Assembly: GCA_029379225.1 (NCBI GenBank)
Contig: JAQYWR010000005.1
Span: 124,001-188,000, forward strand
DNA from: Nostoc sp. S4
GTDB taxonomy: Bacteria; Cyanobacteriota; Cyanobacteriia; Cyanobacteriales; Nostocaceae
DNA: 64,000 nt
Reading direction: 5' to 3'
Part shown: in pieces, positions 990 to 35,970 of the stretch
Position numbering within the stretch: the first letter of the stretch is position 1
Layout: every line of letters begins with the position of its first letter
Notes under the pieces: model-generated
Database searches by the model: none
Seen by the model: only the letters and a program-made list of their open reading frames with translations
What the model was told of the DNA's origin: nothing
Made by a program: the position numbers and the translations under genes

Positions 990-1607
990 TTAGAAAAAAT
1001 TGAGTGGTAGCAATTCAGATGTACCTGACATCAGCTCAGATTGACAATCAGATTTAATATTAGAAATTGAAATTTTATTTTTGAGAATATTCTCAGACGA
1101 ATTTTCAGTCTTTTGATGATGCGATCGCGTAGACAATCCCATTTGTTTGAGCAACTGTTTAATATGGCGATCGCTGATTTCAATTCCTAACTCTTTAGCT
1201 AAATGTTTTTGTAGCCAATTAGCAGTCCATTGCCGAAATCCATAACCATAATCGCGAGGACTATGGTTAACTAATTCTTTTAATCGCTCTAAATATTCTT
1301 CACTAATGATTTTAGGACGACCCATTGGACAATCTCTCCATCGATCTACCATACCGCTACGGGCTATATATATCCAATATCTTGCTGTTGCTGAAGAACA
1401 TCCCAAAGTTTTACAGATTTCAGTTTGAGATTTACCTCGATCTGCCAGCAACATAATCTGGATACGCTGGTAATATAACTCAGGTAAATTTTCATGCAAA
1501 CTTTTTTCGAGATTTTGACGTTGAAATTGTGTCAAAAACTTGCTTGTAGCTATAAATGAAATAGTGTTTGAAGTATGATTTTTAAGTCTATTTGTAGTAT
1601 TATTCAT
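990..1607 (-). CDS. IS630-type helix-turn-helix protein with leader-like tail
   Basis: About 205 residues from the ATG at 1607; a TTG three codons upstream is less likely. The N-terminal half has the helix-turn-helix of IS630-family transposases (RIQIMLLADRGKSQ..IC..LGCS..TARYW), a GRPK linker, and a second winged-helix region ending in HIKQLLKQMGLST. The DDE catalytic domain is absent, so this is a DNA-binding remnant, not a transposase. A unique tail of about 45 residues follows, containing ISISNIK, which resembles the start of the precursor leaders at 2048-2551. Three further copies occur at 8237, 8838 and 35371, all beside the peptide export genes. Likely a regulator or adaptor for the peptide cluster; that role is inferred. 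Confidence 0.75.
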   Translation of the reverse strand: MNNTTNRLKNHTSNTISFIATSKFLTQFQRQNLEKSLHENLPELYYQRIQIMLLADRGKSQTEICKTLGCSSATARYWIYIARSGMVDRWRDCPMGRPKIISEEYLERLKELVNHSPRDYGYGFRQWTANWLQKHLAKELGIEISDRHIKQLLKQMGLSTRSHHQKTENSSENILKNKISISNIKSDCQSELMSGTSELLPLNFF

Positions 1608-1757
1608 AATACACAATAGTTAAATATTTATCTGTAAAATACTATAAATACTAGATATTAATCTAATAAAATAAATTATTAAAATTTATCAAGTAGCTGT
1701 ATATTTATTTTATAGAATATACAGCATTTTTCCAAAGCTTTTTGCAATACAATTATT

Positions 1758-1967
1758 TTACTTTAGATAGTATGAGAATGGAGATAACTTACGATCTATT
1801 GATGCTGTTACTTGACCAAAAACATTGTTTGTTTTGGTTGTGCGATCTGTATGGTCTTGAAGGCCAAAATACAGACCGAGCAAAAAGGCTGAACCAGCTG
1901 CAATACCAAGCCATAATGCCATAAATGGACTAATTTCCCTAAAACCTGTCATAAAACAAGACCTCAC
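1758..1967 (-). CDS. Short peptide resembling a precursor core without leader
   Basis: The stretch SPFMALWLGIAAGSAFLLGL resembles the core of the precursor at 2348-2551 (EPFTGAMVLSLGIAAGAAFLGGL), and the DNA near 1895-1912 is nearly identical to that near 2382-2400. The conserved leader and Gly-Gly site are missing; only a few residues precede the core-like part, and about 40 unrelated residues follow it. It lies on the same strand as the two precursors, 80 bp downstream of the second. It may be a decayed third precursor that lost its leader, or a small membrane peptide such as an immunity protein. A single hydrophobic helix is the only visible structure. Confidence 0.4.
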   Translation of the reverse strand: MRSCFMTGFREISPFMALWLGIAAGSAFLLGLYFGLQDHTDRTTKTNNVFGQVTASIDRKLSPFSYYLK

Positions 1968-2047
1968 TGTGTACTTTCTTCTTTAAAATAGCTTTAGCAT
2001 GGCTCAGCCATGCCAAAGCTACAAAGCTCACCCTAATCAGTACTTCT

Positions 2048-2260
2048 TTAGAATATTGCTTTGATTAATTTTCCGGTTGCATAACCTAAAGCACCGGCAG
2101 CAACTACAGTTCCAGCACCGATTAAGAATAATGAAACTGGTTCAGTTCCACCGATTACGCGGTCAAGTTCATTGCTGCTGAGTTCTGTCATGTAGCTTTC
2201 ACCATCAAACAGCAAGTCATAACCAACGGGACGAATGTCACAAATAGTAATAGAAGCCAT
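2048..2260 (-). CDS. Double-glycine leader precursor peptide (cluster 1)
   Basis: A 70-residue peptide. The leader begins MASITICDIRPVGYDLLFDG and ends ...ELDRVIGG at residue 38, a typical double-glycine site for a C39 peptidase. The 32-residue core is hydrophobic and small-residue rich (IGAGTVVAAGALGYATGK), has no cysteine, and ends in a lysine-containing amphipathic tail. A strong AAAGGAG site precedes the ATG. It shares its leader with the gene at 2348-2551, 87 bp upstream. The export genes at 3249-8172 lie further upstream on the same strand. The core looks like a class IIb-type membrane-active bacteriocin helix; whether it is also modified by the kinase/HopA1 enzymes is unknown. Confidence 0.8.
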   Translation of the reverse strand: MASITICDIRPVGYDLLFDGESYMTELSSNELDRVIGGTEPVSLFLIGAGTVVAAGALGYATGKLIKAIF

Positions 2261-2347: not shown

Positions 2348-2551
2348 CTATCTTGTAGCAGCCCAGAGTCCACCTAGAAAAGCTGCACCAGCTGCAATAC
2401 CAAGCGATAGTACCATTGCTCCAGTAAATGGTTCAGTACCACCAACCACTCGGTCTAGTTCATTTTCATTAAGGTCTGCCATGTAGCTTTCAGCATCCAA
2501 CAACAGGTCATGACCAGCGGGACGGATGTCAAGAACATTAATAGATGCCAT
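2348..2551 (-). CDS. Double-glycine leader precursor peptide (cluster 1)
   Basis: A 67-residue peptide with leader MASINVLDIRPAGHDLLLDA ... ELDRVVGG and a 29-residue core that is hydrophobic, Gly/Ala rich and without cysteine. The leader is about 70 percent identical to that of the next gene (2048-2260) while the cores share only the TEP start, the pattern expected for paralogous precursors with diversifying cores. AAGGAG precedes the ATG at 2551. About 700 bp of non-coding DNA with a strong terminator separates it from the upstream isomerase gene, so the precursors probably have their own promoter and are expressed more strongly than the export genes. Confidence 0.8.
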   Translation of the reverse strand: MASINVLDIRPAGHDLLLDAESYMADLNENELDRVVGGTEPFTGAMVLSLGIAAGAAFLGGLWAATR

Positions 2552-3248: not shown

Positions 3249-3989
3249 TTAGATTTCAATTGCTCTCACAATTTTGCTTTGACTAACTTTTTCCTCAAAC
3301 CATTGTGTAAGAAGCTCTAGCAAAATTTTTTCACGTAATTTATCGTTCAATTGTGGTTGAATAATTTCATCCAGAAAAATTAAGTGAACTCCCTTAGAAG
3401 TTAAAATTGGTTGAAGAAGTTGAGGGGGTTTAGCAGCATAGACAGCAGCAGTAATTTCTGGCTTGAGTTCTTCACGAGGCACTTTCCCACGATAACCTCC
3501 ACAACGTTGTAACTCTGTGTCTTGAATATATTGGCATGCAGCTTCAGAAAAACTGATTTCTGCTTCGGCGATCGCATAAAAAAGTTCTATTGCTAAATCT
3601 TCATTTTCTAATATAATCTCATGAAAACAAACACTGCTATACTCAAGTTGATGTTCGTAAAAAAATGGTTCAATTTGCTCGGCAAATAAATGTTGAGCTA
3701 ATTTGGTCGTAATTACAAAGTTATAGACAGATTCCTCGAAATCATCCAACGACATACCATGATGATGCAACCACTTCCAAGTTTCATCGCTACTAGTTAA
3801 TTTTTGAATAACGCGAAGATAATCGGCACTTTTTTGAAGTTCTTCTGTGGATACTTGAATTCCTATCTCTACAGCAGTAGATCTAATTATTTTAAGTCGA
3901 ACTACCTCATCTATTAAAGATGGTAATCGCCTAGATAGTTTGAGCTGCTGAAGAATTTCTTTTTGCGTAACTACGATTTGCTCAGACAT
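3249..3989 (-). CDS. PpiC/SurA-like peptidylprolyl isomerase (cluster 1)
   Basis: A 246-residue protein. Residues 1-100 are helical and SurA-like; residues about 110-220 resemble a parvulin rotamase (LAIELFYAIAEAEISFSEAA, a GGYRG segment, and KGVHLIFLDEIIQPQL). No signal peptide is seen. It is the last gene of the leftward export operon, 53 bp after the HlyD gene. Paralogous to 29148-29930, which occupies the same place in cluster 2. PpiC-like genes beside HlyD/C39-ABC genes are common in cyanobacteria; the likely role is handling the precursor or exported peptide, but isomerase activity is inferred from family only. Confidence 0.8.
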   Translation of the reverse strand: MSEQIVVTQKEILQQLKLSRRLPSLIDEVVRLKIIRSTAVEIGIQVSTEELQKSADYLRVIQKLTSSDETWKWLHHHGMSLDDFEESVYNFVITTKLAQHLFAEQIEPFFYEHQLEYSSVCFHEIILENEDLAIELFYAIAEAEISFSEAACQYIQDTELQRCGGYRGKVPREELKPEITAAVYAAKPPQLLQPILTSKGVHLIFLDEIIQPQLNDKLREKILLELLTQWFEEKVSQSKIVRAIEI

Positions 3990-4042: not shown

Positions 4043-5428
4043 TTAAAACCGTATTCCTCCTTGTTGTAATTTTTTAAATGGGTCGATTACAAAATCAATA
4101 ACTTTCCGTTTACGAACAATCACTTCAGCTGTTGCTGTATCGCCAGGTTTGAATTTAATGCAGCTTCCTTCTGATTGAATACATGTTTGCTTGAGTCCGA
4201 CTTTGAGCTTAAATGCAGCAATATCACCTTGTGCCGTACTCTTAACATTTGAAGTTGGCGATACCTCTAATAATTTTCCTTTGACCACACCATAATCTTG
4301 ATAAGGATAGGCATCAAACTTGAGATTTACTTCCATTCCCTTTTGCAATGCTCCGCTTTCAGTTGTGGCCATTTCTGCTCGGAGAATAAACGAATTACCG
4401 TTAGGTGCAATCTCGGCTAAGAGGTCACCAGCAGAAATCACTGCTTCAGATTTGGAAATAGGTAGATTATAAATTACACCACTGAGCGGTGCTTTAATTA
4501 TTCGTTGTTGAAGTTGGTTTTCTAAAGATTGGATTTGGCTTTGTGTTTGCTTAATATTTCCTTGATTTTCAGCAATTTGTGAGCGAAACTGCTGAAGTTG
4601 TTGTTCGCTTTGAATGATTGCTAATTCACCTGTTCTTTTGACTCTTTCATAGGCGCTTTTACGCTGACTTAGTTCTAACTGGGCCTGTTGGATTTGTGAA
4701 TACATTTCCTCGACACTGATTTTTTGTTCTTCGTATTTCGACTCGATTTCTTCTGCGGTTTTTTTAGCAATCACACCTTCTTGCAAAAGCTCTTGATGAC
4801 GTTGTAAATCTTTATCTGCTATATTTAAACGACTTTTTACAATTAAAGATTGGCTTTTAAGTGAACTTAAGCGTTCTTGAGTCTGTTCGATTTGAGCTTG
4901 CTGTTCGGATATCTGCGCTTGATTCTGTAATTTTTGCGTATTAATGAGAACTTGCAGCTGTTGTTCGACAGGTTTTAGTTGCAAGCGACTCTCTTGAAAA
5001 CTTTCTAGTTTGGCGTTTGCTTGTTTTAATTCTAATCGCAGAGACTCTGAATCAAGTTCAATTAGTGGTTCGCCTGCTTTTACCCGATCGCCTTCACGAA
5101 CATGTACGGCTTTGACTCTGACACCAGTAAATTGAGTTTCTAGAGGTGCCTCTACTTTAATTGTCTCTTCTTGTGGCTCTAGCCTGCCTCTAGCAACTCC
5201 AGTCATCTCTACTTGATAAAGCATAGACCAGGGAAGGGCGATCGCTACGAATGCCATGAGTACATATAATAAGCCTCTCGTCCAAGGTCGTGGTAAGGCC
5301 TCTAGAAGCTCTTCAGTAGCATAAGACCAGTCGCCAGGATTACCTAGTAATTTATCAGAGGTGGTGGAAGAATCGATTTCATCCTGACGATCTTGGATGG
5401 GAGCGCGTGAATTTAATGAATGTGGCAT
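4043..5428 (-). CDS. HlyD-family membrane fusion protein (cluster 1)
   Basis: About 461 residues from the ATG at 5428 (a TTG at 5437 is possible). A single membrane segment near residues 52-75 (GLLYVLMAFVAIALPWSMLY) is followed by a biotinyl-lipoyl-like half-motif (VHVREGDRVKAGEPLIELDS), a long Gln-rich coiled coil (about 130-310), a second lipoyl half (APLSGVIYNLPISKSEAVIS) and a beta-barrel region. This is the periplasmic adaptor of a type I or bacteriocin exporter. It starts 5 bp after the stop of the C39-ABC gene, so the two are translationally linked. Paralogue: 30335-31882. Confidence 0.9.
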   Translation of the reverse strand: MPHSLNSRAPIQDRQDEIDSSTTSDKLLGNPGDWSYATEELLEALPRPWTRGLLYVLMAFVAIALPWSMLYQVEMTGVARGRLEPQEETIKVEAPLETQFTGVRVKAVHVREGDRVKAGEPLIELDSESLRLELKQANAKLESFQESRLQLKPVEQQLQVLINTQKLQNQAQISEQQAQIEQTQERLSSLKSQSLIVKSRLNIADKDLQRHQELLQEGVIAKKTAEEIESKYEEQKISVEEMYSQIQQAQLELSQRKSAYERVKRTGELAIIQSEQQLQQFRSQIAENQGNIKQTQSQIQSLENQLQQRIIKAPLSGVIYNLPISKSEAVISAGDLLAEIAPNGNSFILRAEMATTESGALQKGMEVNLKFDAYPYQDYGVVKGKLLEVSPTSNVKSTAQGDIAAFKLKVGLKQTCIQSEGSCIKFKPGDTATAEVIVRKRKVIDFVIDPFKKLQQGGIRF

Positions 5429-5433
5429 ACTTT

Positions 5434-8160
5434 TCAAACTTTGGCGACTGAGTGCTGTTGCTGATTGAGATAAAAGTAGTGACCCTGTTTATCCATTAAT
5501 TCTTGATGGGTTCCACTTTCCACTAAAACACCGCGATCGAGAACTAGAATTGTGTCAGCATTGCGGATTGTTGAAAGACGATGAGCAATGATAATTGCAG
5601 TTCGATTTTTCAAGATGTGATTTAAGTTTGTTTGAATCATCCGTTCAGATTCGGCATCAAGATGACTGGTTGCTTCATCAAAAATCAGTAAGCGGGGATT
5701 TCCCAATAAAGCGCGAGCGATTGCTAACCTTTGGCGCTGTCCTCCTGAGATCGTATTCCCACCTTCTCCAATATGAGTTTCATATCCTGCTGGTAATTGT
5801 TGAATAAACTCATCTGCTCCGGCTTGTCTGGCAGCTTCAATAATTTCTTCTAAAGAAGCAGAAGGATTACGCAAGCTAATATTTTTCCGAATCGTACTAC
5901 CAAATAAAAAGTTACCTTGATCGACGACTCCAATCTGTTGTCTGAGACTAGCTAGCGATAAGGTTGTGATATCTTTACCATCAATTAAAACTTTGCCATC
6001 TGTGGAAGAATACAAGCCTAAAATCAGTTTAGAAATAGTTGTTTTCCCTGAACCGCTGCGTCCTACTAAGGCTATTTTTTGACCTGGTTGGATTTCAAAA
6101 CTGAGATTTGTTAAAACGTTAATGTCACTATCAGGACGGTAACGAAATGTCACCTGCTCAAAGCGAATATTACCTTGGAGATTAGTCACAGGTTGACGTG
6201 ATTTAATTTGTAAGTCTTCTTCTAATGGTGTATCGAGGACATCGTTAAGCCGTTCTACAGAGATAATGATTTCTTGCAACTGATTCCACAGCACAATTAA
6301 TCTTTGGAATGGTTGCATAACATTGCTAAGGAGCATATTAAAAGCAACTAATTGTCCAATGGTGAGTTCATTGTTAATTACTAGCCATGCCCCAAACCAT
6401 AACAATCCTGTTCTGGCTAAAGATTCAATGATTGAGCTAATAGTTCGTAGTCGATTAGCAACTACTTGTCCTGTAAAGTTTTTCTTAATAGAAGTATTAA
6501 AATACTCTTCCCATTGCCAACGCACCAACTGTTCAGCAGCCATTGATTTAATAGAACTGACGCCTGTCAGTGCTTGAATTAAATATCCACTTTCATCAGC
6601 ACTAGCATTAAATATTTCGCGGGAAACACGCTGCAAAAATGGTGTAGCAATTAAGGCTAATAAAACAAATGGCGGAACTATAACTAATATCAAAAGTGCT
6701 AATTTCCAGTTATACCAGAACATCAAACCAACATAGACAAAAAGCGTTATTAGGTCTAGAAAAATAGAAAGTGATTCCCCAGTAATAAAACGCTGAATTT
6801 TCCGATTCTCTTCGATGCGAGTGATAATATCACCGACATAACGTGATTCAAAAAAACTCAAAGGTAGTCCAAATGTATGGCGAATAAAGCCGACAATCAA
6901 TGCTAAATCGACTTTATTCGCTGTGTGGTTCAATAGATACTGGCGTAGTCCTGTCATTGCTACTTGGAAAAGACCAAAAATCAATAATCCTAATCCAATA
7001 GCATTCAATGTTAATGAACTACCATGTACAACCACTCTATCAAAGAGTAATTGAGTAAAAATTGGTGTAACTAAACCAAAAATTTGAATGAATAGAGATG
7101 AAACAAATACTTCAAATAGAATAAATCCGTGTGGTTTGACTAATTCAAAAAACTGCCAAAAACTGGTTCTTTCTTGTTTTGATTCTTGTAGTAAAACTGT
7201 CGGTTGTAACAAAAGTGCGTAATTTGTCCAACTTGCTAGGAATTCTTGCCGTTTTAAAACTCGTTGACCGATATCAGGATCGACTAAGATAACATGTTTT
7301 TTTGTAATTTGATAAACGACTATATAGTGAGCTTTTTCCCAATGCACGATCGCCGGCAGAGTTTGTTTAGCCAGTTGATCTAAGGAAGCTTTCACAGGCC
7401 GAGTAGAAAAGCCAAGACTTTCTGCTGCTGCTGAGAGCGATCGCAACGATGCCCCATTACGATCTACATTGGCGCGATCGCGCAGATGATTGAGACTAAA
7501 ATTTTTGCCCCAGTAACGCGCAACCATCACTAAACAAGCAGCCCCACAATCCGATGCACTTTGCTGTAAAAAACATGGGTAACGTTGAGTCATCCGTTGC
7601 CACAGATGTCCAATTCGCTGGGTGGGAGTGGGAAAATAAGCTTGATTAATCTTCTTGTTTGAATGTCTAGATACTACAGGTAAGGAAATTGGTGTTGCTT
7701 GAGATTCCTTTTTGATAGAAGAAACAACTGGCTCATTTAACTCTATTATTTTGGCATCTAGTGCTTTTGCTTGTTCGTATAGATGATGGCGAATTTGATG
7801 ATTGTTAATTAAGGAAAATATTAATTGCAGTGGAATGTAGCAAAGCTTGACATTGACTGCTGTTCTTACAGCATAAAATTTAAAGGATTCTTCTGGAAAC
7901 ACACTACACTCACCAAATGTAGAACCAGCTGGTAATGTAGCGATCAGATTTTTCTGGCGATCGAGAAGACGAACTTTGCCTGTAATGACAATATAAATTC
8001 CCGTCTTTGCATTGCCTGTTTGCCAAAACAGTCCCACATCAGGCTCTAAAATTTCAATATTTTTATATAGCTGCTGAAATTCCAGATGATTAAATCCGTA
8101 TCCAAAAACTTCAATTAATACCTGATGAGAGATTTCCAAATTTTGTGCTTGGTCGGCCAT
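5434..8160 (-). CDS. C39-peptidase ABC exporter with cNMP-binding-like domain (cluster 1)
   Basis: About 908 residues from the ATG at 8160 (TTG at 8172 possible). Order of domains: cyclic-nucleotide-binding-like fold (about 30-140, with GIYIVITGKVRLLD), C39 peptidase with catalytic Cys near 205-209 (SASDCGAAC), His (AHYIVV, near 282) and Asp (DPD, near 298), six-helix ABC membrane domain, and an ATPase with Walker A GRSGSGKTT, signature SGGQRQR and Walker B LLIFDEAT. It should cut the precursors after Gly-Gly and export the core. The architecture matches the HetC type of cyanobacterial exporters. It is preceded by two helix-turn-helix genes on the same strand and followed by HlyD. Confidence 0.93.
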   Translation of the reverse strand: MADQAQNLEISHQVLIEVFGYGFNHLEFQQLYKNIEILEPDVGLFWQTGNAKTGIYIVITGKVRLLDRQKNLIATLPAGSTFGECSVFPEESFKFYAVRTAVNVKLCYIPLQLIFSLINNHQIRHHLYEQAKALDAKIIELNEPVVSSIKKESQATPISLPVVSRHSNKKINQAYFPTPTQRIGHLWQRMTQRYPCFLQQSASDCGAACLVMVARYWGKNFSLNHLRDRANVDRNGASLRSLSAAAESLGFSTRPVKASLDQLAKQTLPAIVHWEKAHYIVVYQITKKHVILVDPDIGQRVLKRQEFLASWTNYALLLQPTVLLQESKQERTSFWQFFELVKPHGFILFEVFVSSLFIQIFGLVTPIFTQLLFDRVVVHGSSLTLNAIGLGLLIFGLFQVAMTGLRQYLLNHTANKVDLALIVGFIRHTFGLPLSFFESRYVGDIITRIEENRKIQRFITGESLSIFLDLITLFVYVGLMFWYNWKLALLILVIVPPFVLLALIATPFLQRVSREIFNASADESGYLIQALTGVSSIKSMAAEQLVRWQWEEYFNTSIKKNFTGQVVANRLRTISSIIESLARTGLLWFGAWLVINNELTIGQLVAFNMLLSNVMQPFQRLIVLWNQLQEIIISVERLNDVLDTPLEEDLQIKSRQPVTNLQGNIRFEQVTFRYRPDSDINVLTNLSFEIQPGQKIALVGRSGSGKTTISKLILGLYSSTDGKVLIDGKDITTLSLASLRQQIGVVDQGNFLFGSTIRKNISLRNPSASLEEIIEAARQAGADEFIQQLPAGYETHIGEGGNTISGGQRQRLAIARALLGNPRLLIFDEATSHLDAESERMIQTNLNHILKNRTAIIIAHRLSTIRNADTILVLDRGVLVESGTHQELMDKQGHYFYLNQQQHSVAKV

Positions 8161-8236
8161 AGTATTAGTCAAATTAGTTTTAGATGCACCAAAAAATCAT
8201 TCAGATTTAGTAACTAAGAGTTAGTACTTATTCTAC

Positions 8237-8812
8237 TTATCCCTCTATATTTTTATTTTTGAGTAATTTAAAGCCAGAAGAACTGGCCTCAAAGTCTTCC
8301 ACATTAGAAATATTATTAATCACCAGATTGTTTACTTTGTTTTCTTGGTTTTCCACCTGGAGATTTTTACCTCTAGTCGAAAGTCCCATCTGCTTCAATA
8401 GCCGATTAATATGTCTAGCACTGATTTCTATAGCAAACTCTTTTACTAAATGCTTACTTAAGCGAGAAGCTGTCCAGTATTCAAATGAATACCCCAAAGT
8501 TTTAGGAGCGAAATTTATTAATTCTTTTAAACGCTTTAGATATTGGTCGTTGATAGTTTTCGGACGACCAACGGGAGATAGTTCCCAGTAGTGAGCTTGT
8601 CCAGTAGTTGCTACATTAGTCCAGTGCCTAACTGTTTCTCGCGCACACTTTAAACATCGAGAAATTTCTATTTGCGATTTTCCTATATCCGCTAGCAACA
8701 TAATTTCCACGCGCCGACGATGTATCTCAGACAAATGAGATTCTCTTAAAATTTTCAGAAGTAGATTTTGTTGAAATGGTGTTAAATGGACACTGTAATT
8801 TCGGTAATTCAT
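8237..8812 (-). CDS. IS630-type helix-turn-helix protein with tail (cluster 1, second copy)
   Basis: About 191 residues from the ATG at 8812. It has the same two DNA-binding parts as the other three copies: RRVEIMLLADIGKSQ.EIS..LKCARETVRHW, a GRPK linker, and HINRLLKQMGLST. It is the most divergent copy. The tail after GLST has NNLVINNISNVEDFE, a weaker match to the leader motif. It lies between another helix-turn-helix gene (19 bp upstream of its stop-start gap) and the exporter gene (about 75 bp downstream), so all three are probably co-transcribed. No transposase catalytic residues are present. Confidence 0.75.
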   Translation of the reverse strand: MNYRNYSVHLTPFQQNLLLKILRESHLSEIHRRRVEIMLLADIGKSQIEISRCLKCARETVRHWTNVATTGQAHYWELSPVGRPKTINDQYLKRLKELINFAPKTLGYSFEYWTASRLSKHLVKEFAIEISARHINRLLKQMGLSTRGKNLQVENQENKVNNLVINNISNVEDFEASSSGFKLLKNKNIEG

Positions 8813-18362: not shown

Positions 18363-18428
18363 ACTTGCTTGTGGGTAAACTTTTAGTGAGTTTCCTCCCA
18401 AGGGAGACACAAATAGGTTGATTTTTGT

Positions 18429-18575
18429 AAGCCGAGGCATTAACAATGCAAGCCGAGGCATTAACAATGCAGGTCGATGTATTAAGATTGCAAGTCGATG
18501 CATTAACAATGCAAGTCGATGCATTAACAATGCAAGTCGATGCATTAACAATGCAAGTCGATGTATTAAGATTGC
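18429..18575. repeat. Tandem repeat, seven 21-bp units
   Basis: Seven units of exactly 21 bp, each starting AAG(C/T)CGA(G/T)G and containing CATTAACAATGC or the variant TATTAAGATTGC. Units start at 18429, 18450, 18471, 18492, 18513, 18534 and 18555. The 21-bp period keeps all frames open, so spurious heptad peptides arise on both strands. Located downstream of xisI. A different 21-bp array occurs at 31961-32086. Confidence 0.95.
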
Positions 18576-27641: not shown

Positions 27642-28727
27642 ATGCAACTATTAGATTTACTACCAACTCAACTTTCTGGTATTCCAGAGTCATTGCAGAT
27701 ATCATTGAAAGACATCGTTTATAAAGTTGAGATTCAGTCTCACTGTTGTATTAAGCATCCAGATTACAACCTTTTAGAATTGCCAGAAACAGTAGTTTCC
27801 AGCTTTGAGAAATTATCTGTAGATTTCCAGAATAAGTTTTTAAGCGAGCAATTACGCAATTTTCTGTATGGTACTTATTACAATGGTTCCTTGAAACGTA
27901 CCTTAGCATTGGATGCAGAAGTAACGAATTTGGCTTTGAACGAAAATCTAGAAAACAACACATTTTTTGGTGTGGATGTAGCTTTTTACGATCGCTTGCA
28001 CGAAAGTAATAGAGGTGTAGGATACTGGAATCATAATTGGCTACTAGTAAAAAAAGAAACAGATGGCATGTTAGCGGTAAATAAAAATGGGTTGACACTG
28101 CACGTTGAACCCCATACTTTAGAACAAAACGCTAACGTCGGTGACTCGGTAGCAATCAAAATGCCCAAGAATCTGGTACAAAAGGGATTTTATATGGCGG
28201 TTGCTAATACCGGTACACCCTCAAATGAAAAAAATTTAGTGCGTGTCTACTTCAATTTAAATCCAGAGGGTGCAGTTGCAGTTATAGATAGTTTGACTAC
28301 CCAACTCAACGCGATAAACATTTCTTTTTCTTTGAAAGCACTATACAATCCTTCCGAATATGGGCGTTACGATTCAGCAGTGCTTTACTTTGATAAAAAT
28401 AACTATCAAGTTGTTCGCCCAATATTAGAGAGATTCTATACACAACATCAATCAGATTTTAATCAACAAGTGCCTTTGTTTACCAAGATGGTAGCACCAG
28501 GATTGGCGATCGCTGAAGAACCAAACCAAAAATTTGGTGACAAAGAAAGTTTTGGTACAAACCGTTGCCAAGTTGTTGCTAATGGTTTATTTGAGGCTTG
28601 GCATCAAGGAAATAATACTCCAGCAGGACGCCTAGCATCGATTATGCGACATTTTTCGTTGTGCGAAATTGACTTGCAACGTCCTTATCTCAATGCCAAT
28701 TCGGATGATATTTACACTTTTTTTTAA
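27642..28727 (+). CDS. HopA1-family protein, candidate phospho-Ser/Thr lyase (cluster 2)
   Basis: A complete 361-residue HopA1-family protein. Conserved blocks: LRNFLYGTYYNG (about 70-81), KMPKNLVQKGFYMAV, a VRVYFNLNPEGAVAVID strand-helix, and YGRYDSAVLYFDKNNYQVV near 245-263. Cytoplasmic, no signal or membrane segment. Downstream of the APH-fold kinase, which is the class V lanthipeptide pairing (kinase plus HopA1 domain). I see no gene for a third cyclase component. The paralogue at the window start belongs to cluster 1. The lyase activity is inferred from class V work, not visible in the sequence. Confidence 0.82.
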   Translation: MQLLDLLPTQLSGIPESLQISLKDIVYKVEIQSHCCIKHPDYNLLELPETVVSSFEKLSVDFQNKFLSEQLRNFLYGTYYNGSLKRTLALDAEVTNLALNENLENNTFFGVDVAFYDRLHESNRGVGYWNHNWLLVKKETDGMLAVNKNGLTLHVEPHTLEQNANVGDSVAIKMPKNLVQKGFYMAVANTGTPSNEKNLVRVYFNLNPEGAVAVIDSLTTQLNAINISFSLKALYNPSEYGRYDSAVLYFDKNNYQVVRPILERFYTQHQSDFNQQVPLFTKMVAPGLAIAEEPNQKFGDKESFGTNRCQVVANGLFEAWHQGNNTPAGRLASIMRHFSLCEIDLQRPYLNANSDDIYTFF

Positions 28728-28773: not shown

Positions 28774-29079
28774 ATGACTCAAGAGCTTTCCAAGTCTGAT
28801 GAAATCTTAGCTCCTAAATTCAACTTCAATCATGAAGAATTAGAACAAATTATCAAAGCTGTTACACTTGGTAAATATTCTTGGGCTTGTGTTTTAATCC
28901 TACGTTTTATTGGCTACGATCCTCTCAAATATATACCCTCCCGTACCTACATTCGATTGATAAAAAGTAATTGTTTACTTGGCACCAACCGTCAACAAAC
29001 TGATACTCAAAATTTCGGACTTTTTAAATTAGAATCAACTTGGACTAAACAGGGTCACAGTAAACGCAGTTCTAAGTAA
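28774..29079 (+). CDS. HetP-family heterocyst-regulation protein
   Basis: A 101-residue protein with the HetP core: [34 protein letters not shown] (given here in parts: [32 protein letters not shown]). HetP and its paralogues act on heterocyst commitment in Anabaena. In that genus hetP lies next to hetC, which encodes a C39-type ABC exporter with a cNMP-binding-like domain. Here the HetP gene starts 46 bp after HopA1 and faces the HetC-like exporter operon. It may be a diverged paralogue specialised to the peptide cluster. The C-terminal 30 residues are not conserved. Confidence 0.82.
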
Positions 29080-29136: not shown

Positions 29137-29147
29137 TTGATATTCCT

Positions 29148-29930
29148 TTAAGCTTGCATTACTATATTTTTAGATGATTCCGGATTGACAGATTTTGTGA
29201 TTGCTACTATTTCCATAGCGGCAATTTGCGTTTTTAACCAATTAGCGAATAAGTCTCCCATAATTTGTAGCCGTCGCTGTTCATCTAATTGAGGTTTAAT
29301 AATTTCCTCAACTGCAATAATATGCGCTCCTTTGGGAGTAATTATTGGCTTGAGAATTTGTGGAGGATTTGCAGCAAAGATGGCTGCTGCAATCTCTGGT
29401 CTAAAATCTCTGCGGAGACGTATTCCTTGATATCCTCCAGCACGGCGGATTTCAATATTATCGATGTATTGGCGAGCGATTTCTTGAAAACTAATTTCTC
29501 CTTCTTGCAGAGCATAAAACAGTTCTAGAGCTAAATCTTCATCGTCTAAAATAACTTCATAAGTTACTGCTCCAACATAATCGAGTTGATGTGCATAAAA
29601 GAATGGTTCGACTTTGTCTGCAAATAGATGATTTGCTAATTTACCAGATAAAAGACTTGTTTGAGCGATCGCTTCAAAGTCGTCTAGAGAAAGATGATAT
29701 TTTTCTAACCATGTCCAGGTATCTTCAGCTTTTAGCAGTTGGTTGGCTAAACGTAGGTTATCTGCTGCCTGTTGCAGTTCTTCTAAATCAATTTGAATAC
29801 CTGCCTCTTTAGCTTCATCTTCAACAATTTTGCGAGTGGCGATCGCCTCCAATATATTAGGAATTTGACAAGAAAGCTTGATGTGGTCAAGAATATCCTC
29901 AGGAGAAACAGTTAATACTTTTGACATCAT
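29148..29930 (-). CDS. PpiC/SurA-like peptidylprolyl isomerase (cluster 2)
   Basis: A 260-residue protein, paralogue of 3249-3989 with the same layout: helical N-terminal part, then a parvulin-like domain (LALELFYALQEGEISFQEIA, AGGYQG, KGAHIIAVEEIIKPQL). No signal peptide. It ends the leftward set but is separated from the HlyD gene by 404 bp with a hairpin at 30169-30209, so it may be expressed separately here, unlike in cluster 1. Confidence 0.8.
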   Translation of the reverse strand: MMSKVLTVSPEDILDHIKLSCQIPNILEAIATRKIVEDEAKEAGIQIDLEELQQAADNLRLANQLLKAEDTWTWLEKYHLSLDDFEAIAQTSLLSGKLANHLFADKVEPFFYAHQLDYVGAVTYEVILDDEDLALELFYALQEGEISFQEIARQYIDNIEIRRAGGYQGIRLRRDFRPEIAAAIFAANPPQILKPIITPKGAHIIAVEEIIKPQLDEQRRLQIMGDLFANWLKTQIAAMEIVAITKSVNPESSKNIVMQA

Positions 29931-30334: not shown

Positions 30335-31882
30335 CTAAAGCTGTAAACCGCCTTGTTGCAACTTTTTAAATGGATCTAAAATAAAGTCCATAACCCGACG
30401 TTGGCGGATGATTACTTCTGCGGTTGCTGTTTGACCTGCTGTAAGAGGAATACGTTTGTTGGCAGTTTGGATATAAGGGTGAGCTACGGAAATTTGTAAT
30501 TCATAGGTTTCGATGTTGCCTTGATTAGTCGTCTGAATTTTTGAGTTGGGTGAAATCCAACTAACTTGCCCTTGCAGCACTCCATAATCTTGGAAGGGAT
30601 AGGCATCAAATTTGATTTTAACTGGCATTCCCAACTTCAAAAAACCACTTTGTTCGCTGGGCATCTGTGCCCTTAAAATCAAAGAACTATTGTTGGGCGC
30701 AATTTGGGCAATCATTTGTCCTGGTTCTACTACTGAGCCTGGTTTTTGGATAGGCAATTCAAAAATTACCCCATCAATAGGCGATCGCACCACTCTTTGT
30801 TGTAACTGTAGTTTTAAGGATGTAATCTCGCTTCCAGTTTGAGCAATTTCTGATTGGACGCTAGTAATTTGTGTTTGCAAATCTTTAAATTGTTCCTGGT
30901 TTTTCAGCAGCGCTAGTTTACCAGCTTGCACCACACTGCCATAGCTGCTTTGTTCTTCTTTGAGGCGAAGTTTGAGCAGTTGAATATCTGAATGAGCTTG
31001 ACTGATTAGGGATTGATAGCTGTTGAGTTCTTGTTTTAAGCGTAACTGGGCTTGGGTAATATCAGATTTTGCTTGTTCTTGCAAGCGTTGACTTTCTTCT
31101 GCTGTTTTTTCTAGTTCCACAAGTTTGGTTTCGGGAATCGCACCTTGTCGTAAAAGTTGGCGATAACGCGTAACTTCTGTAAAATCTCGACTTAAACGAC
31201 TCTTAGCTAATTTCTGAGCAATCTGGGTAGAATTGATATTCTGGCTAGCTTGTTCTACCAGAGCCAGTTTTTCCATTCGTTGTAAGTTATAGGTACTTTG
31301 TTTAGCATCAAGGTTTTGCTGTGCCTGACTAACTTGAGCAAGTTTTTCTAATTCTTGGGATTTATTTTGTTGCTCTTGGATATTAATCGTCAATGAAATT
31401 TGGTTTTTTAGGAGATCCAATTGCGATCGCTGACTTAATAAACCTTCTAGTTTTGTCTGTACCTGTTGCAGTTGTGTATGTAGCACATCAGACTCTAATT
31501 CAACTAAAACCTGTCCTGCTTTTACCGTTGCGCCTTCTTTAACATTGACAGCCGTCACACTACCAGTAACAGGACTATCTAATTTTTGCGTTGCTCCTTC
31601 GGGTTCCATCCGTCCTCTAGCGCTTCCTGTCTCATCAACTTTAGAAAGCATTGCCCAAGGTATAACAATTACAGCAAAGCCAATCAGTAAATACAACAAG
31701 GAACGTGTCCAGATCCTTGGTAAAGCATCTAATAGTTCCTCAGTTCCATAAAACCAATCGTTCGTCTGTGATGTTTCCTGTGTTTGAGGATTGACAACAC
31801 TACTCGTATTTCCAGCCAAGAAAAACTCAGCCTGCTTTTCTATGGGGATCGCAGATAATGAATTATTAGATGGGTTTGGCAT
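30335..31882 (-). CDS. HlyD-family membrane fusion protein (cluster 2)
   Basis: A 515-residue adaptor. One membrane segment near 58-78 (LLYLLIGFAVIVIPWAML), lipoyl half VNVKEGATVKAGQVLVELES, a very long coiled coil (about 125-370), second half SPIDGVIFELPIQKPGSVVE and a C-terminal beta domain ending DPFKKLQQGGLQL, the same ending as the cluster 1 protein (DPFKKLQQGG). It links the C39 exporter to the outer envelope. A 21-bp tandem array lies between it and the exporter gene. Confidence 0.9.
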   Translation of the reverse strand: MPNPSNNSLSAIPIEKQAEFFLAGNTSSVVNPQTQETSQTNDWFYGTEELLDALPRIWTRSLLYLLIGFAVIVIPWAMLSKVDETGSARGRMEPEGATQKLDSPVTGSVTAVNVKEGATVKAGQVLVELESDVLHTQLQQVQTKLEGLLSQRSQLDLLKNQISLTINIQEQQNKSQELEKLAQVSQAQQNLDAKQSTYNLQRMEKLALVEQASQNINSTQIAQKLAKSRLSRDFTEVTRYRQLLRQGAIPETKLVELEKTAEESQRLQEQAKSDITQAQLRLKQELNSYQSLISQAHSDIQLLKLRLKEEQSSYGSVVQAGKLALLKNQEQFKDLQTQITSVQSEIAQTGSEITSLKLQLQQRVVRSPIDGVIFELPIQKPGSVVEPGQMIAQIAPNNSSLILRAQMPSEQSGFLKLGMPVKIKFDAYPFQDYGVLQGQVSWISPNSKIQTTNQGNIETYELQISVAHPYIQTANKRIPLTAGQTATAEVIIRQRRVMDFILDPFKKLQQGGLQL

Positions 31883-31960
31883 AATAATTGGGGACTAGCG
31901 AATGGGGAACTGGTGATTTGAGACTAGGTAATGGGGATTAGGGATTAAGAGGTTTGAGTC

Positions 31961-32086
31961 TTTGAACTTCATTAATGAGTGTTTGAACTTCATTAATAAG
32001 TATTTGAACTTCATTAATGAGCCTTTGAACTTCATTATTGAGCCTTTGAATTTCATTAATGAGTATTTGAACTTCATTAATGAACC
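31961..32086. repeat. Tandem repeat, six 21-bp units, between exporter and HlyD genes
   Basis: Six units of 21 bp with consensus TTTGAACTTCATTAATGAG plus two variable bases, starting at 31961, 31982, 32003, 32024, 32045 and 32066; partial units flank both ends. It sits in the gap between two genes normally translated together. The unit length equals that of the array at 18429-18575 although the sequence differs. Confidence 0.92.
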
Positions 32087-32108: not shown

Positions 32109-35100
32109 CTATTTTTCCTCAGCCCCAGCCCCCAGTCCCCTTCCTAGTTGTTGCTGATTAAGATAGAAGTAATGACCTTTTTTGGCGATTAATTGCTCGT
32201 GAGTACCGCTTTCAACTAAAATCCCCCGATCTAAAACCAAAATCAAGTCAGCATGACGCACGGTAGAGAGACGGTGAGCAATAATTAAACTTGTGCGTCC
32301 TTGGAGAATTTTTTTGAGGTTGTTTTGAATAATTCGCTCAGATTCAGCATCTAAATGACTGGTTGCTTCATCTAATACCAAGAAAGAGGGATTTCCAAGC
32401 AAAGCACGAGCGATCGCTAGGCGTTGGCGTTGTCCACCAGATAGCATACCTCCACCTTCACCGATTTGGGTTTCGTAACCCATTGGCATTTGCACAATAA
32501 ACTCGTCTGCTCCTGCTAGACGCGCCGCTTCAATCATTTCTTCTTGGGGAGCTTCTGGATGAGCAATGCAAATGTTTTCCCGAATTGTACCGCCAAACAA
32601 AAATGTATCTTGGTCTACAACACCAATTTGAGAACGTAGCGATCGCAGGGAAATATTAGTTACATCTTGGGCATCAATCAACACTTTACCATCTGTCGGC
32701 AGATATAGTCCTAAAATCAATTTTGAAAGCGTAGTTTTCCCAGAACCGCTACGCCCAACAACTGCAACAGTTTGCTCCGGTTTAATTTCAAAATTGAGAT
32801 TTTCTAAGACATTAATATCGCTTTGTTGATGATAGCGAAAAGTCACATTTTCAAAGATAATATGACCGCGTAAATAACTTAAAGACTGGCGGGGTTGATG
32901 TTGTAAATCTTCTTCTGGTTCTGCTTCTAAAACATCATTAATTCGTTCTGTAGAAATAATTACTTCTTGTAATTGATTCCACAGCACAACCAGCCTTTGG
33001 AAAGGTCGAATGATGTTACCTAACAGCATATTGAAAGCGACTAATTGGCCGATGGTCAGTTGGTTTTGAATTACTTGCCACGCACCAAACCAAAGTAATC
33101 CCGTAGTTACCAGCGATTCTATACTAGAACTGAAAACCTGGAGTTGGTTACTAATTACTTGTCCGCTAAAGGTCTTTTTAATAACATTATTCAGCAGCTC
33201 TTCCCAATGCCAGCGTACTGTTTGCTCAATTGCCATCGAGCGAACTGAGCGAATACCTGTCAGAGATTGAATTAGATAACTGTTCTCTGTGGCTGAGGCA
33301 TTAAAAACTTCGCGGCTGATGCGACGCAAGAAAGGTGTAGCAATCAGCGCTAAAAAGACAAAAGGCGGTATAATTGCCAAGCTGAATAATGCCATTTGCC
33401 AGCTATACCAAAACATCAATCCTACATAGATAAATACTGTCAGCAAATCCAAAATAATAGACAGTGCTTCTCCAGTTAAAAAGCGCTGAATTTTTTGATT
33501 TTCTTGGACGCGAGAGACAATATCCCCAACATAACGCGACTCAAAAAAAGCTAAGGGTAAACGAAAAGTATGCTTAATAAAACCTACCAAAAGTGCTAGT
33601 CCCAGACGATTTGCTGTGTGATCCAGTAAATATTGCCGTAGTCCGTTGATTGCAACGCGGAAAAAACCAAAAATTAGTAACCCTAAACCAACGGCGTTTA
33701 AAGTTAGAGTGCTACCTTGGACAATCACTCTATCTAACAGTAATTGAGTAAATAAAGGTGTAACTAATCCAAGTAACTGAATTAATACCGAAGCGATAAA
33801 CACTTCTATCAATACTTGGGAGTGGGGTTTAACTAAATCAAAAAACTGCCAAAATGGCGTAACTAATTCCTGGGTTTCTCTGAGTAAAGCTGTGGGCTGT
33901 AATAACAAAGCATAACCACTCCAACCAGCTTGAAATTCGCTAGGAGTCAGGCTGCGTTGACCGATGGCGGGGTCAGCAACAATCACACGCTTTTTATTGA
34001 CTTCATAGACAACAATATAGTGCTTACCTTCCCAGTGAGCGATCGCTGGTAGCGGTTGTTGTGCTAATTTATCCAAACTAGCCTTCACCGGACGGGTAGC
34101 AAAGCCAATACTTTCTGCGGCTGCTGTTAAACCCTGCAATGATGCGCCACTGCGGCTAATGTTGCTTAAATCTCGCAAGCGGTTAACACTAAAGCGCTTC
34201 CCCCAATAGCGACTAATCATCACCAAGCAAGCTGCTCCACAGTCCGAGGCGCTTTGTTGTTCAAAGAACGGATACCGTTTAGTTAAACGCCCCAACAAAT
34301 GTCTAGCCCTTACCCTTGGACTGGGAAAGTAAACTCGTTGTCTGTTTTTCTTTTGTTTTGGCTCGACATTAGGGATTGGGGATTGGGGAGTTCGCGGCTT
34401 CCTTTGGGAATTAGGAGTAATGGGTATTGGGGAAGGTGGAACCCCCTCTGGGGATAAGGGGTAATGGGTATTAAGTATTGGATATTGGGAAAAACCTTCC
34501 CCATTCCCCACTGTCCGCTCCCTACTTTTTTGTCCAGCTTGACGCTCTTGGAAATCTATTAAGTCTGCTAATTGCGGCCAATGTTGTAGTGCTGTTTGCC
34601 AATCAGCATTGCTCAAACTGTAAGCGATGGTTGGTTGCGCTACTTGCCAACTTCCGTGTTTGGGATTTAGGTAGATGTTTCCAGGTGTCAATTTTCGGCC
34701 GCTGGAATCCAGCATTTCTCCCCGGTAAAGTAACCAGAGCTTGCTATCTTTGGTCAGATTAGTATTTAAAGACCCACTCTCTAAATTGTGGCGATGAAAT
34801 AGGGATAGTGCTTTTAACATCTCCTCCATATAACCATTACGCCCCATTAATAAATTTTCGGAACATAACAGTAGCAAATCCCTAATTTCGGCACGTTTAA
34901 AAAGGCGATCGCGGATAGTCAGCGATGTGGAAATTACCTCTTGTAAATTCTCTGCTGTGATATAACAAAGATTTAAATTTACTGAAGCTCTAGCAACATA
35001 AGGACTAAATTTTTCTTGGGGAAATAAAGTCAATTCACCAAATGATGCTCCAGACAAAAGGCTAGTAATTAGGTTGTTAGAACTATCCAGTAGTCTGGCT

Positions 35101-35285
35101 TTACCACTCAGAATGATATAAATTCCTGGCTTCGCTGTGGTTGCTTCCCAAAACTGCTTTGCTACAGGTGGTTCAACAATTTCCAGTACTTTGAGACACC
35201 TATAAACTTGTTCCTCTGACAGCGACTCACCCAAAGTTTGGGTGAGTTTTTCAACTAAATATTCCTGAGAAAACGCTGACGGCAT
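32109..35285 (-). CDS. HetC-like C39-peptidase ABC exporter with cNMP-binding-like domain (cluster 2)
   Basis: A 1058-residue protein: cNMP-binding-like domain (about 30-135, GIYIILSGKARLLD), a further domain absent from the cluster 1 exporter (about 135-250), a low-complexity linker (258-308), C39 peptidase with Cys 349 (SASDCGAAC), His 422 (KHYIVV) and Asp 438 (ADPA), ABC membrane domain, and ATPase with GRSGSGKTT, SGGQRQR and LVLDEAT. Length and layout match HetC of Anabaena. Expected to cleave the YGG and IGG leaders and export the cores. It is preceded by a helix-turn-helix gene 85 bp upstream. Confidence 0.92.
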   Translation of the reverse strand: MPSAFSQEYLVEKLTQTLGESLSEEQVYRCLKVLEIVEPPVAKQFWEATTAKPGIYIILSGKARLLDSSNNLITSLLSGASFGELTLFPQEKFSPYVARASVNLNLCYITAENLQEVISTSLTIRDRLFKRAEIRDLLLLCSENLLMGRNGYMEEMLKALSLFHRHNLESGSLNTNLTKDSKLWLLYRGEMLDSSGRKLTPGNIYLNPKHGSWQVAQPTIAYSLSNADWQTALQHWPQLADLIDFQERQAGQKSRERTVGNGEGFSQYPILNTHYPLSPEGVPPSPIPITPNSQRKPRTPQSPIPNVEPKQKKNRQRVYFPSPRVRARHLLGRLTKRYPFFEQQSASDCGAACLVMISRYWGKRFSVNRLRDLSNISRSGASLQGLTAAAESIGFATRPVKASLDKLAQQPLPAIAHWEGKHYIVVYEVNKKRVIVADPAIGQRSLTPSEFQAGWSGYALLLQPTALLRETQELVTPFWQFFDLVKPHSQVLIEVFIASVLIQLLGLVTPLFTQLLLDRVIVQGSTLTLNAVGLGLLIFGFFRVAINGLRQYLLDHTANRLGLALLVGFIKHTFRLPLAFFESRYVGDIVSRVQENQKIQRFLTGEALSIILDLLTVFIYVGLMFWYSWQMALFSLAIIPPFVFLALIATPFLRRISREVFNASATENSYLIQSLTGIRSVRSMAIEQTVRWHWEELLNNVIKKTFSGQVISNQLQVFSSSIESLVTTGLLWFGAWQVIQNQLTIGQLVAFNMLLGNIIRPFQRLVVLWNQLQEVIISTERINDVLEAEPEEDLQHQPRQSLSYLRGHIIFENVTFRYHQQSDINVLENLNFEIKPEQTVAVVGRSGSGKTTLSKLILGLYLPTDGKVLIDAQDVTNISLRSLRSQIGVVDQDTFLFGGTIRENICIAHPEAPQEEMIEAARLAGADEFIVQMPMGYETQIGEGGGMLSGGQRQRLAIARALLGNPSFLVLDEATSHLDAESERIIQNNLKKILQGRTSLIIAHRLSTVRHADLILVLDRGILVESGTHEQLIAKKGHYFYLNQQQLGRGLGAGAEEK
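34361..34511. repeat. Intergenic-type repeat inserted in frame within the exporter gene
   Basis: This stretch encodes the Pro/Ser/Asn-rich linker before the peptidase domain and consists of GGGGATTGGGGA/GGGTAATGGGTATT-type units, the same kind of DNA seen between genes in this window (for example 31895-31950). The cluster 1 paralogue lacks it. The frame is kept. Confidence 0.75.
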
Positions 35286-35370
35286 TTTCTATCCTCCAAA
35301 ACAGTATTTGGGCATTGAGTATGGGGTATTGGTCATTTATGCTTTGACTAATGACCAATGACAAATGACT

Positions 35371-35970
35371 TTAGTTATTAGTTTGAATTAAATTAAAAGA
35401 CCAATGCATACTAGCTTCAGATTTAGATTGCAAGTCAGAAATTGTAATCCCAGCATCCTTATTTTGGTCAGTTTCTTGTGGCTGGAACTTTTTGCGTTTA
35501 GTAGAAAGTCCCATTTGTTTGAGTAAACGATTAATATGGCGGTCAGTAATTACAATGCCAAATTCATTTGCTAAATGTTTGCTCAACCATTGAGCTGTCC
35601 AGTAAGTAAATGCATAGCCATATTCCCGCGGACTATTACTGACTAATTCTTTCAAACGTTCAATATAGCGATCGTTAACAGTCTTAGGTCTACCTATAGG
35701 TCGCTCATTCCATTTATGCGCTAAACCTGCCTCTGCTATCCCAATCCAGTACCGTGCCATTTCCTGCGAACAACCTAAAATTTCACAGATTTGGCTTTGA
35801 GATTTACCCATATCCGCCAATAACATAATTTCAATCCGCCGACGATATTCTGGCTGTAAATTAGCTTGCAGATTTTTCAGCAGTGCTTTCCGCTGAAAAG
35901 GTGTTAAAAACTTGCTTTCGTGCATGTCATAGCTTTCAAAAGCGTTGTCTTGTCCGGAGTATTCTGACAT
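35371..35970 (-). CDS. IS630-type helix-turn-helix protein with leader-identical tail (cluster 2)
   Basis: A 199-residue protein with RRRIEIMLLADMGKSQSQIC, a GRPKT linker and HINRLLKQMGLST. The tail holds ITISDLQSKSEASMHWSFN; ITISDLQ is identical to the leader start of the precursor at 23775-24002 and nearly so to that at 25592. No DDE domain. It begins the leftward exporter set of cluster 2, matching the place of the two copies in cluster 1. The tail ends about 20 residues after the motif with no Gly-Gly and no core. Confidence 0.8.
   Translation of the reverse strand: MSEYSGQDNAFESYDMHESKFLTPFQRKALLKNLQANLQPEYRRRIEIMLLADMGKSQSQICEILGCSQEMARYWIGIAEAGLAHKWNERPIGRPKTVNDRYIERLKELVSNSPREYGYAFTYWTAQWLSKHLANEFGIVITDRHINRLLKQMGLSTKRKKFQPQETDQNKDAGITISDLQSKSEASMHWSFNLIQTNN

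Follow-up and report, generated by a model that had tools for sequence, protein, structure and literature searches.

The window considered here is the whole analysed stretch of 64,000 nucleotides from Nostoc sp. S4 (assembly GCA_029379225.1, contig JAQYWR010000005.1, positions 124,001 to 188,000 of the forward strand), whose source genome is 7.66 Mb. It encodes four helix-turn-helix (HTH) proteins of about 200 residues, here called HTH proteins 1 to 4, which are related to the DNA-binding half of IS630 transposases and whose tails hold a short motif, I-x-I-x-D-L, that is also found at the start of the leaders of peptide precursors encoded in the same window. Two exporter operons are present, both on the minus strand. 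The first runs in the order HTH protein 3 (8838-9437), HTH protein 2 (8237-8812), exporter (5434-8172), HlyD, SurA-like isomerase, two precursors (2348-2551 and 2048-2260) and HTH protein 1 (990-1607), and the second in the order HTH protein 4 (35371-35970), exporter, HlyD and SurA-like isomerase. Opposite the second operon, on the plus strand, lie four precursors, an APH-like kinase and a HopA1-like protein. The features of the two operons and the precursors are as follows.

990-1607, minus strand: HTH protein 1, 205 residues, IS630-type DNA-binding half, downstream of two precursor genes (Pfam, IS630 model)
1053-1073, minus strand: tail motif ISISNIK of HTH protein 1
8237-8812, minus strand: HTH protein 2, 191 residues, immediately upstream of the exporter gene 5434-8172 (Pfam, IS630 model)
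8306-8326, minus strand: tail motif LVINNIS of HTH protein 2
8838-9437, minus strand: HTH protein 3, 199 residues, leading gene of the tandem HTH pair (Pfam, IS630 model)
8892-8912, minus strand: tail motif ILIHDLK of HTH protein 3
35371-35970, minus strand: HTH protein 4, 199 residues, immediately upstream of the exporter gene 32109-35285 (Pfam, IS630 model, AlphaFold2 model)
35428-35448, minus strand: tail motif ITISDLQ of HTH protein 4
5434-8172, minus strand: exporter 1, cNMP_binding (CAP_ED), C39 peptidase and ABC domains (Pfam)
32109-35285, minus strand: exporter 2, cNMP_binding (CAP_ED), C39 peptidase and ABC domains (Pfam)
4043-5437, minus strand: HlyD-type membrane fusion protein 1 (Pfam)
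30335-31882, minus strand: putative HlyD-type membrane fusion protein 2 (by resemblance, without Pfam)
3249-3989, minus strand: SurA-like PPIC-type peptidyl-prolyl isomerase 1 (Pfam Rotamase)
29148-29930, minus strand: putative SurA-like isomerase 2 (by resemblance, without Pfam)
2048-2260, minus strand: precursor with leader MASITICDIRPVGYDLLFDGESYMTELSSNELDRVIGG
2348-2551, minus strand: precursor with leader MASINVLDIRPAGHDLLLDAESYMADLNENELDRVVGG
23775-24002, plus strand: precursor with leader MVRITISDLQHSNSDENLLSELTSWQMKTVEGG
24613-24876, plus strand: precursor with leader MASIALSQLN...IYGG
24997-25257, plus strand: precursor with leader MASIALSQLN...IYGG, second copy
25592-25804, plus strand (open reading frame from 25532): precursor with leader MSKITISDLRTANSESLLINVSNLDYISIYGG

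The four HTH proteins match the IS630 transposase model NF033545 only over the first 114-127 of its 299 positions, with scores of 63.9-82.2 bits (under the cut-off of 100) and E values of 1.6e-17 to 4.3e-23. HTH_32 scores above the Pfam cut-off in all four and the IS630-type N-terminal HTH pair is present; no DDE catalytic domain above the Pfam cut-off was detected in any of them. The description given in an earlier note on this DNA, that these open reading frames (ORFs) are IS630-type DNA-binding halves without DDE domain, was thus borne out. The AlphaFold2 model of HTH protein 4 (mean predicted local distance difference test score, pLDDT, 70.7) consists of nine helices and no strand of three or more residues. 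When this model was submitted to Foldseek, Pax paired domains took the top three places and the DNA-binding domain of Tc3 the fifth, every match being weaker than E 0.001, and no solved structure matched the HTH profile at E 0.01. The recognition element of ribosomally synthesized and post-translationally modified peptides (RiPPs), known as RRE, is a winged HTH whose beta-sheet takes the leader as an extra strand; the predicted fold of the HTH protein is strand-free and in this respect differs from an RRE (judged on fold; no RRE model was scanned by name). Since the HTH core is well conserved, DNA binding has probably been kept.

In the genome scan, the nearest relatives of HTH protein 4 came from Nostoc and its kin. 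The family was detected at E 1e-35 in 70 of 388 genomes drawn from the class and at E 1e-20 in 206 of 388 genomes from the order, the weak end of the latter (around E 1e-20 to 1e-30) looking like IS630 transposases. The window and 199 further loci yielded 208 HTH ORFs, corresponding to 170 distinct proteins below 320 residues; HTH ORFs of at least 320 residues, the source-genome match L007, and two of the 208 ORFs in which the end of the core was not reached were dropped. Among the 170 proteins, 153 are encoded just upstream of an exporter gene, 14 are not, and 3 were set aside for having too little downstream DNA, so that 153 of the 167 judgeable homologues adjoin an exporter gene. The window (by Pfam) and related loci hold the long-type (CAP_ED) cyanobacterial bacteriocin exporter cluster, composed of a CAP_ED-C39-ABC exporter, HlyD and SurA; a cNMP_binding domain was found in all three HTH-adjacent exporters scanned outside the window, in one of them under the cut-off. 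The link of the HTH protein to the exporter operon across cyanobacteria is therefore well supported, and the HTH proteins are domesticated IS630 DNA-binding halves that form a near-constant part of this operon (HTH, CAP_ED-C39-ABC exporter, HlyD, SurA-like isomerase).

The tail motifs ISISNIK, LVINNIS, ILIHDLK and ITISDLQ, which had been reported before, were all located on the minus strand within the ORFs concerned. Two further short HTH homologues of the source genome, each directly upstream of an exporter gene, have the tails ILISDLK and LVINDLT, which brings the motif to six of six short homologues in this genome; the seventh, distant match (L007) is an intact IS630-type protein of 373 residues. 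The pattern [ILV]x[ILV]x[DNEQST][LI] was matched in 151 of the 153 distinct exporter-adjacent tails, as compared with a mean of 7.1% of shuffled tails (SD, standard deviation, 2.0%; maximum 13.7%; 300 shuffles), and the two tails that miss it hold the near-motifs INIQVLN and RIVDLSP. As 80 loci are nearest relatives from one clade, the counts were also made per identity cluster, where the motif is present in 45 of 47 representatives at 70% identity and in 18 of 19 at 60%. Pairwise comparison of the 41 of these 47 representatives that have both motif and full core gave mean identities of 0.85 at motif positions 1, 3, 5 and 6, against 0.63 for the core, 0.10-0.12 for the linker, and 0.14 both for motif positions 2 and 4 and for the 20 residues that follow the motif. 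The ratio of nonsynonymous to synonymous codon differences follows the same course, being 483/1405 (0.34) at the fixed motif positions, 30332/27034 (1.12) in the core and 8886/528 (16.8) in the linker. Little besides the motif is left in the tails of L186, L194 and L198. Judged from this pattern of conservation, the tail may serve as a tether, hypervariable and about 19 residues long, with a docking peptide (I-x-I-x-D-L) at its end.

In some relatives the HTH ORF is longer, with 242-272 codons from stop to stop (L089, L091, L092, L095-L099, L107, L108, L110, L111, L113 and L120, and again L142, L143, L145 and L152), and the tail extends to IYGA or IHGA, followed by a core-like stretch. The likeness of these endings to the leader end IYGG could suggest that an HTH gene once fused with a precursor gene and that the tail is what erosion has left of this fusion, a reading that we hold to be extremely improbable. 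Of 19 such long ORFs, 18 overlap the exporter ORF by 97-130 bases (the exception is L114, and three are the same genes counted twice); for the tail and the 5' end of the exporter gene the overlap comes to about 100-136 bases. In the five cases checked at base level, Gly-Ala is the exporter start region in another frame; CAT GGT GCA (His-Gly-Ala), for example, is the exporter start C ATG GTG CA.. with the frame shifted by one. The stretch after the motif, moreover, is not conserved. A fusion with a whole precursor was accordingly rejected, and the overlap largely refutes the remnant reading as well. The overlap is further evidence for the pairing of the HTH and exporter genes and, open as it is in many genomes, is likely to reflect translational coupling.

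The precursors of the window carry the same motif, as had been noticed earlier, and it begins at residue 4 of each. An iterated search found 149 leader ORFs, and 182 after loci were added; the motif follows a Met in 170 of the 182, at residue 4 in 166 of these 170, and locus ends truncate several of the remaining 12. The leader models were built from motif-bearing leaders, and detection is biased towards those. Position by position the two families share their preferences, with I first, I in tails and I, V or L in leaders third, D (in leaders E as well) fifth and L sixth, the second and fourth places being free. A scoring matrix derived from tails only was applied to the N-terminal 14 residues of ORFs, the leaders being identified with a model that leaves out the N-terminal motif; the matrix placed 109 of 150 leaders of HTH/CAP_ED loci, and none of 11 leaders of loci with short exporters, above the 99th percentile of 8328 background ORFs. 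Across the 388 genomes, HTH and leader were both present in 52, HTH only in 18, leader only in 5 and neither in 313 (Fisher test, 5e-43). One of the five leader-only genomes, G593, has a shortened HTH protein with the tail IAIVDLF under the threshold and was rejected as an HTH-less case, so that four of the five stand; in another, G501, the leader contig is just 10 kb. As stated earlier, the HTH tails of the window end about 20 residues past the motif without Gly-Gly; they share the N-terminal leader motif with double-glycine precursors, and the Gly-Gly leader end and the core are absent from them. Leader mimicry by the HTH tail across cyanobacteria is well supported at the level of sequence.

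The leaders have three address elements, namely I-x-[IV]-x-[DE]-L at residues 4-9, a middle segment GSELFxDSESFL, and a helix ending in Gly-Gly, the site at which C39 cuts the leader in C39 exporters. The following kinase and HopA1-like genes are found in the window.

25990-27177, plus strand: APH-like kinase (LanK-like; Pfam APH, PF01636, 29.5 bits, cut-off 23.2)
27642-28727, plus strand: HopA1-like protein (LanY-like; Pfam HopA1, PF17914, 202.9 bits, cut-off 22.7)
5-934, plus strand: second HopA1-like protein, close to the window edge (Pfam HopA1; open frame of 362 residues that may start outside the window)

The short exporters (C39-ABC) of kinase/HopA1 clusters showed no cNMP_binding domain in four of four scanned. 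The leaders of these HTH-less clusters keep the middle segment and Gly-Gly (much like PAGxxLFSxxESFLxDLSEEDExxIxGG), and the motif is present in 0 of 11 of their distinct leaders, as against 144 of 150 in loci with HTH or a CAP_ED exporter, candidates without an upstream Met or scoring under 16 being left out; by locus the figures are 0 of 11 and 75 of 77 (Fisher test, 2e-12). Of the six leaders in the HTH class that miss the motif, four have VxINNF and the other two depart from it at the Asp position. G526 and G460 hold both kinds of cluster. The remaining leader classes are mixed, with the motif in 37 of 44 leaders of loci classed as having only kinase/HopA1 and in 4 of 8 of loci with none of the genes used for the classes; of these 11 misses, 8 differ at Asp alone, two belong to L244 (leaders beside kinase/HopA1; HTH not found at E 1e-20 in this genome, which is 87% complete), and one to L237, whose contig is short and includes part of a short exporter, so that this leader groups with the 11 short-exporter leaders. 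Conversely, G542 and G567, which gave no HopA1 hit, have HTH, a CAP_ED exporter and three leaders (MKNIKINDL..., MQNINISDL..., MSKITISDL...) that carry the motif and lack the middle segment, with the caveat that G567 is 88% complete and its cNMP_binding match is slightly under the cut-off. Leaders that adjoin an exporter in a stretch without kinase/HopA1 (L142, L216) look alike, with HopA1 elsewhere in those genomes. The first leader element thus goes with the HTH/CAP_ED-exporter system and the middle segment with kinase/HopA1.

The earlier note had left it between leader-binding enzymes and exporter which of them the tail is presented to; the cluster contrast and G542/G567 favour the exporter side and disfavour kinase/HopA1. 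A reading of the tail by the modification enzymes, in which the DNA-binding protein senses the kinase/HopA1 pair or is modified by it, would agree with two counts: 54 of the 57 leader-positive genomes have HopA1, and 68 of the 137 HTH loci of at least 10 kb include a kinase or HopA1 gene. It is, however, improbable: the short-exporter, HTH-less leaders beside kinase/HopA1 have no motif (0 of 11), G542 and G567 have leaders with the motif and gave no hit to HopA1, and the HTH tails are without the middle segment that goes with kinase/HopA1. No support was obtained for the suggestion that the HTH protein is itself modified. The tail most likely copies the export address of the leader and not its modification address.

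These observations suggest that the tail of the HTH protein docks where exported peptides dock. It is, in our judgement, an evenly balanced proposition that a single receptor, most likely a site on the HTH-associated exporter complex, binds both tail and leader, and that the DNA-binding protein thereby senses exporter occupancy. With few precursors the DNA-binding protein would sit on the exporter, and when the exporter is filled by precursors the HTH protein would be displaced and act on DNA, which would make it a sensor of exporter occupancy. More tentatively, the transposase-derived family could read export load by substrate mimicry instead of a small-molecule signal, the tail occupying the first leader-docking site, precursors competing for it, and the freed protein altering exporter and precursor expression. 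The coupling of the HTH protein to transcription is what we infer here.

Several observations weigh against this occupancy-sensing proposal. HopA1 was detected in 67 of the 388 genomes. Among the 57 leader-positive genomes, HopA1 is present in 54 and HTH in 52; the two associations are equally close, and genome counts alone cannot name the reader of the motif because of the former figure. The short-exporter leaders are not random at the place of the motif (tail matrix, area under the curve 0.80; median -1.1 vs 11.4), and a weakened form of it may remain in them. A tree of 54 kinases, in which those of L008-L087 had been thinned to every fifth locus, needs 4 changes of the motif label, at least 3 of them forced by well-supported branches; since only 4 label changes are needed, the short-exporter contrast represents few independent events. 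In addition, second CAP_ED exporters with a long N-terminal part, inspected in 8 loci, have no adjoining HTH gene and no motif leader was found beside them; therefore a CAP_ED domain by itself does not decide whether the motif is present.

Nor do tail and leader co-vary from locus to locus: over 69 loci the score of own pairs was 15.94 against 16.06 (SD 0.30) for permuted pairs, and 1321 of 2000 permutations were as high. This absence fits a motif fixed in tail and leader by one conserved reader and gives no support for matched pairs. Two likenesses had been pointed out earlier. ITISDLQ is indeed common to the tail of HTH protein 4 and the leader at 23775, but the exact identity carries no weight as evidence because tails and leaders do not co-vary; likewise, the gap-free alignment of the tail at 990 with the leader at 2048 carries no weight beyond the motif because that stretch is only 14% identical within the family. 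The lack of co-variation would also suit a tail motif that is the end of an unrelated functional peptide, its likeness to leaders coming from the simplicity of the I-x-I-x-D-L pattern, and six residues with two free positions do form a weak pattern. Such a coincidence is nevertheless very improbable, for the same positions are fixed in both families in the same gene clusters, and a tail matrix score of at least 12 was reached by 76 of 170 leaders (chosen by the motif pattern) and by 5 of 6069 other small ORFs, four of which (L186, L188, L074, L145) read like further Gly-Gly precursors.

Structure prediction gave the proposal no help. AlphaFold2 left the tail of HTH protein 4 disordered in the protein alone (pLDDT about 35; monomer) and, when it was joined in a single chain to the CAP_ED-C39 part of the exporter, the tail stayed disordered (pLDDT 26-38); it was docked neither on its own HTH core nor on the exporter CAP_ED-C39 part in these monomer jobs, which used shallow alignments of 42 and 32 close sequences. 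Pseudosubstrate tails are known as a means of regulation, and by that precedent the HTH protein itself could be the receptor, with leaders binding its core or dimer and its own tail acting as an autoinhibitory intramolecular pseudo-leader until displaced by a precursor. The leader motif tracks HTH as closely as it tracks the exporter, the two being nearly always adjacent (153 of 167). We regard this arrangement as rather unlikely, given that the model is all-helical with no sheet to take an added strand, and that the tail has a pLDDT of about 35 in the monomer model.

The 14 distinct homologues without an exporter within 2.5 kb downstream bear on the statement that the same tail far from peptide clusters would speak against leader mimicry. 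Nine of them keep the motif (Fisher test vs the adjacent set, 4e-5), which tells against the proposal, and six of the nine lie near cluster genes or a leader, which softens the point: HlyD/SurA is still in the locus in five, and in the sixth, L085, a leader ORF stands at 11182-11391, about 600 bases off. The other three, L067, L167 and L195, keep the motif with no cluster gene in view over about 10 kb on each side and count against it. L182, L189 and L190, together with L184 from among those set aside, are without the motif, and L193 and L196 have near-motifs. In L072, L074, L075 and L077, where no exporter was found between them, both HlyD and SurA follow the HTH gene and the motif is kept, which would be expected if the SurA-like isomerase or HlyD read the motif and tail and leader were both its clients, with no transcriptional role. 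This seems unlikely; SurA-like genes also occur near the second, HTH-less exporters of the same loci.

As for the DNA side of the occupancy-sensing proposal, no element common to the upstream regions of HTH and leader genes was found with shared 10-mers, a further point to its disadvantage. A conserved element, GCAACTGGTA, occurs in 33 of 139 distinct HTH upstream regions and stands out in the clade of HTH protein 4 (35371-type); the element upstream of the 35371-type genes is a candidate DNA target, judged by its conservation. The element TTTGCCCACATTT ... GACGGCAACTGGTAA is conserved just before the HTH start codon (in the window upstream of 35970, and in L008-L087) and could be an operator or an element of the 5' untranslated region.

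Some other features of the window and the related loci were recorded. The window ORF 1758-1967 (minus strand), between the leader gene at 2048 and the HTH gene at 990, is leaderless and precursor-core-like (FMALWLGIAAGSAFLLGLYFG), and is perhaps a decayed precursor. The ORFs 18273-18551 and 31895-32077 read as short repeat peptides (LMHRLAL; MKFKxSL), which suggests tandem DNA repeats. The small protein at 28774-29079 (plus strand), after the HopA1 gene, had no Pfam match at 0.001 and may resemble HetP. In L141 / L234 of the source genome, MvdD-like ATP-grasp (PF21068) and GNAT genes lie upstream of an HTH-exporter operon that also holds kinase and HopA1 genes and four precursors; L141 had been a candidate for a motif-leader cluster without kinase/HopA1 and was rejected, both genes being just beyond the stretch first considered. 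Fifteen leader ORFs precede one kinase/HopA1 pair in L204 (G470), in which no exporter was found in the stretch. In L201, L221, L224, L231, L232, L233 and L237, kinase and HopA1-like regions occur in one open frame of 749-878 residues; these fused frames adjoin precursors with Arg- or Lys-rich cores and, where its gene is complete, a short C39-ABC exporter.

Should tail and leader share a receptor, the HTH protein would be a direct molecular wire from a peptide exporter to DNA, made of a domesticated transposase. The leaders would then be modular, with segments for the exporter system, for kinase/HopA1 and for the peptidase, which tells engineers which segment serves which step, and the tail would be a ready-made competitor peptide for locating the first docking site of these cyanobacterial exporters. 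We know of no regulator with a mimic of a RiPP leader, and no such protein was found described in the open-licence literature of PubMed Central (titles and abstract openings; subscription papers and supplements were outside the scope). A leader-mimicking HTH protein would be a categorically new kind of part, the mechanism given above being a proposal.

The system can be compared with several known ones. Cyanobacterial bacteriocin clusters of groups I, II and VI have the same long CAP_ED-C39-ABC exporter, HlyD and SurA (Wang, Fewer and Sivonen, 2011; PMC3140520). The term 'helix-turn-helix' has 0 occurrences in the main text of this genome-wide cluster survey, supplements aside; in the clusters described here, an HTH gene with a leader-like tail is the near-constant first gene. 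With the class V lanthipeptides and their LanK/LanY (cacaoidin CaoK/CaoY; PMC9486802), the window has in common an APH-like kinase and a HopA1-like protein adjoining small precursors, as far as can be told from genes alone. That paper includes a 'type-B' group of putative precursors, all cyanobacterial, and a leader-like tail on a regulator is not described in the part of its text drawn on here. HetC, an exporter of Nostoc PCC 7120, has the same domain order of cNMP-binding, C39 and ABC, and differs in that no substrate with a double-glycine leader is known beside it, according to the portion of the source used (PMC10986499). In HetC, ppGpp binds to the cNMP domain in vitro, and the domain is needed in vivo (PMC10986499); because of this, the corresponding CAP_ED domain need not be the docking site and, by analogy, may be a nucleotide sensor rather than a reader of the leader motif. 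Finally, the HTH proteins share with the DNA-binding half of IS630 transposases (NF033545; paired-domain-like bipartite HTH, cf. Tc3 and Pax) an N-terminal sequence match and a weak fold match, but they are without the DDE domain, are near-constant partners of an exporter operon, and carry a leader-like tail instead.

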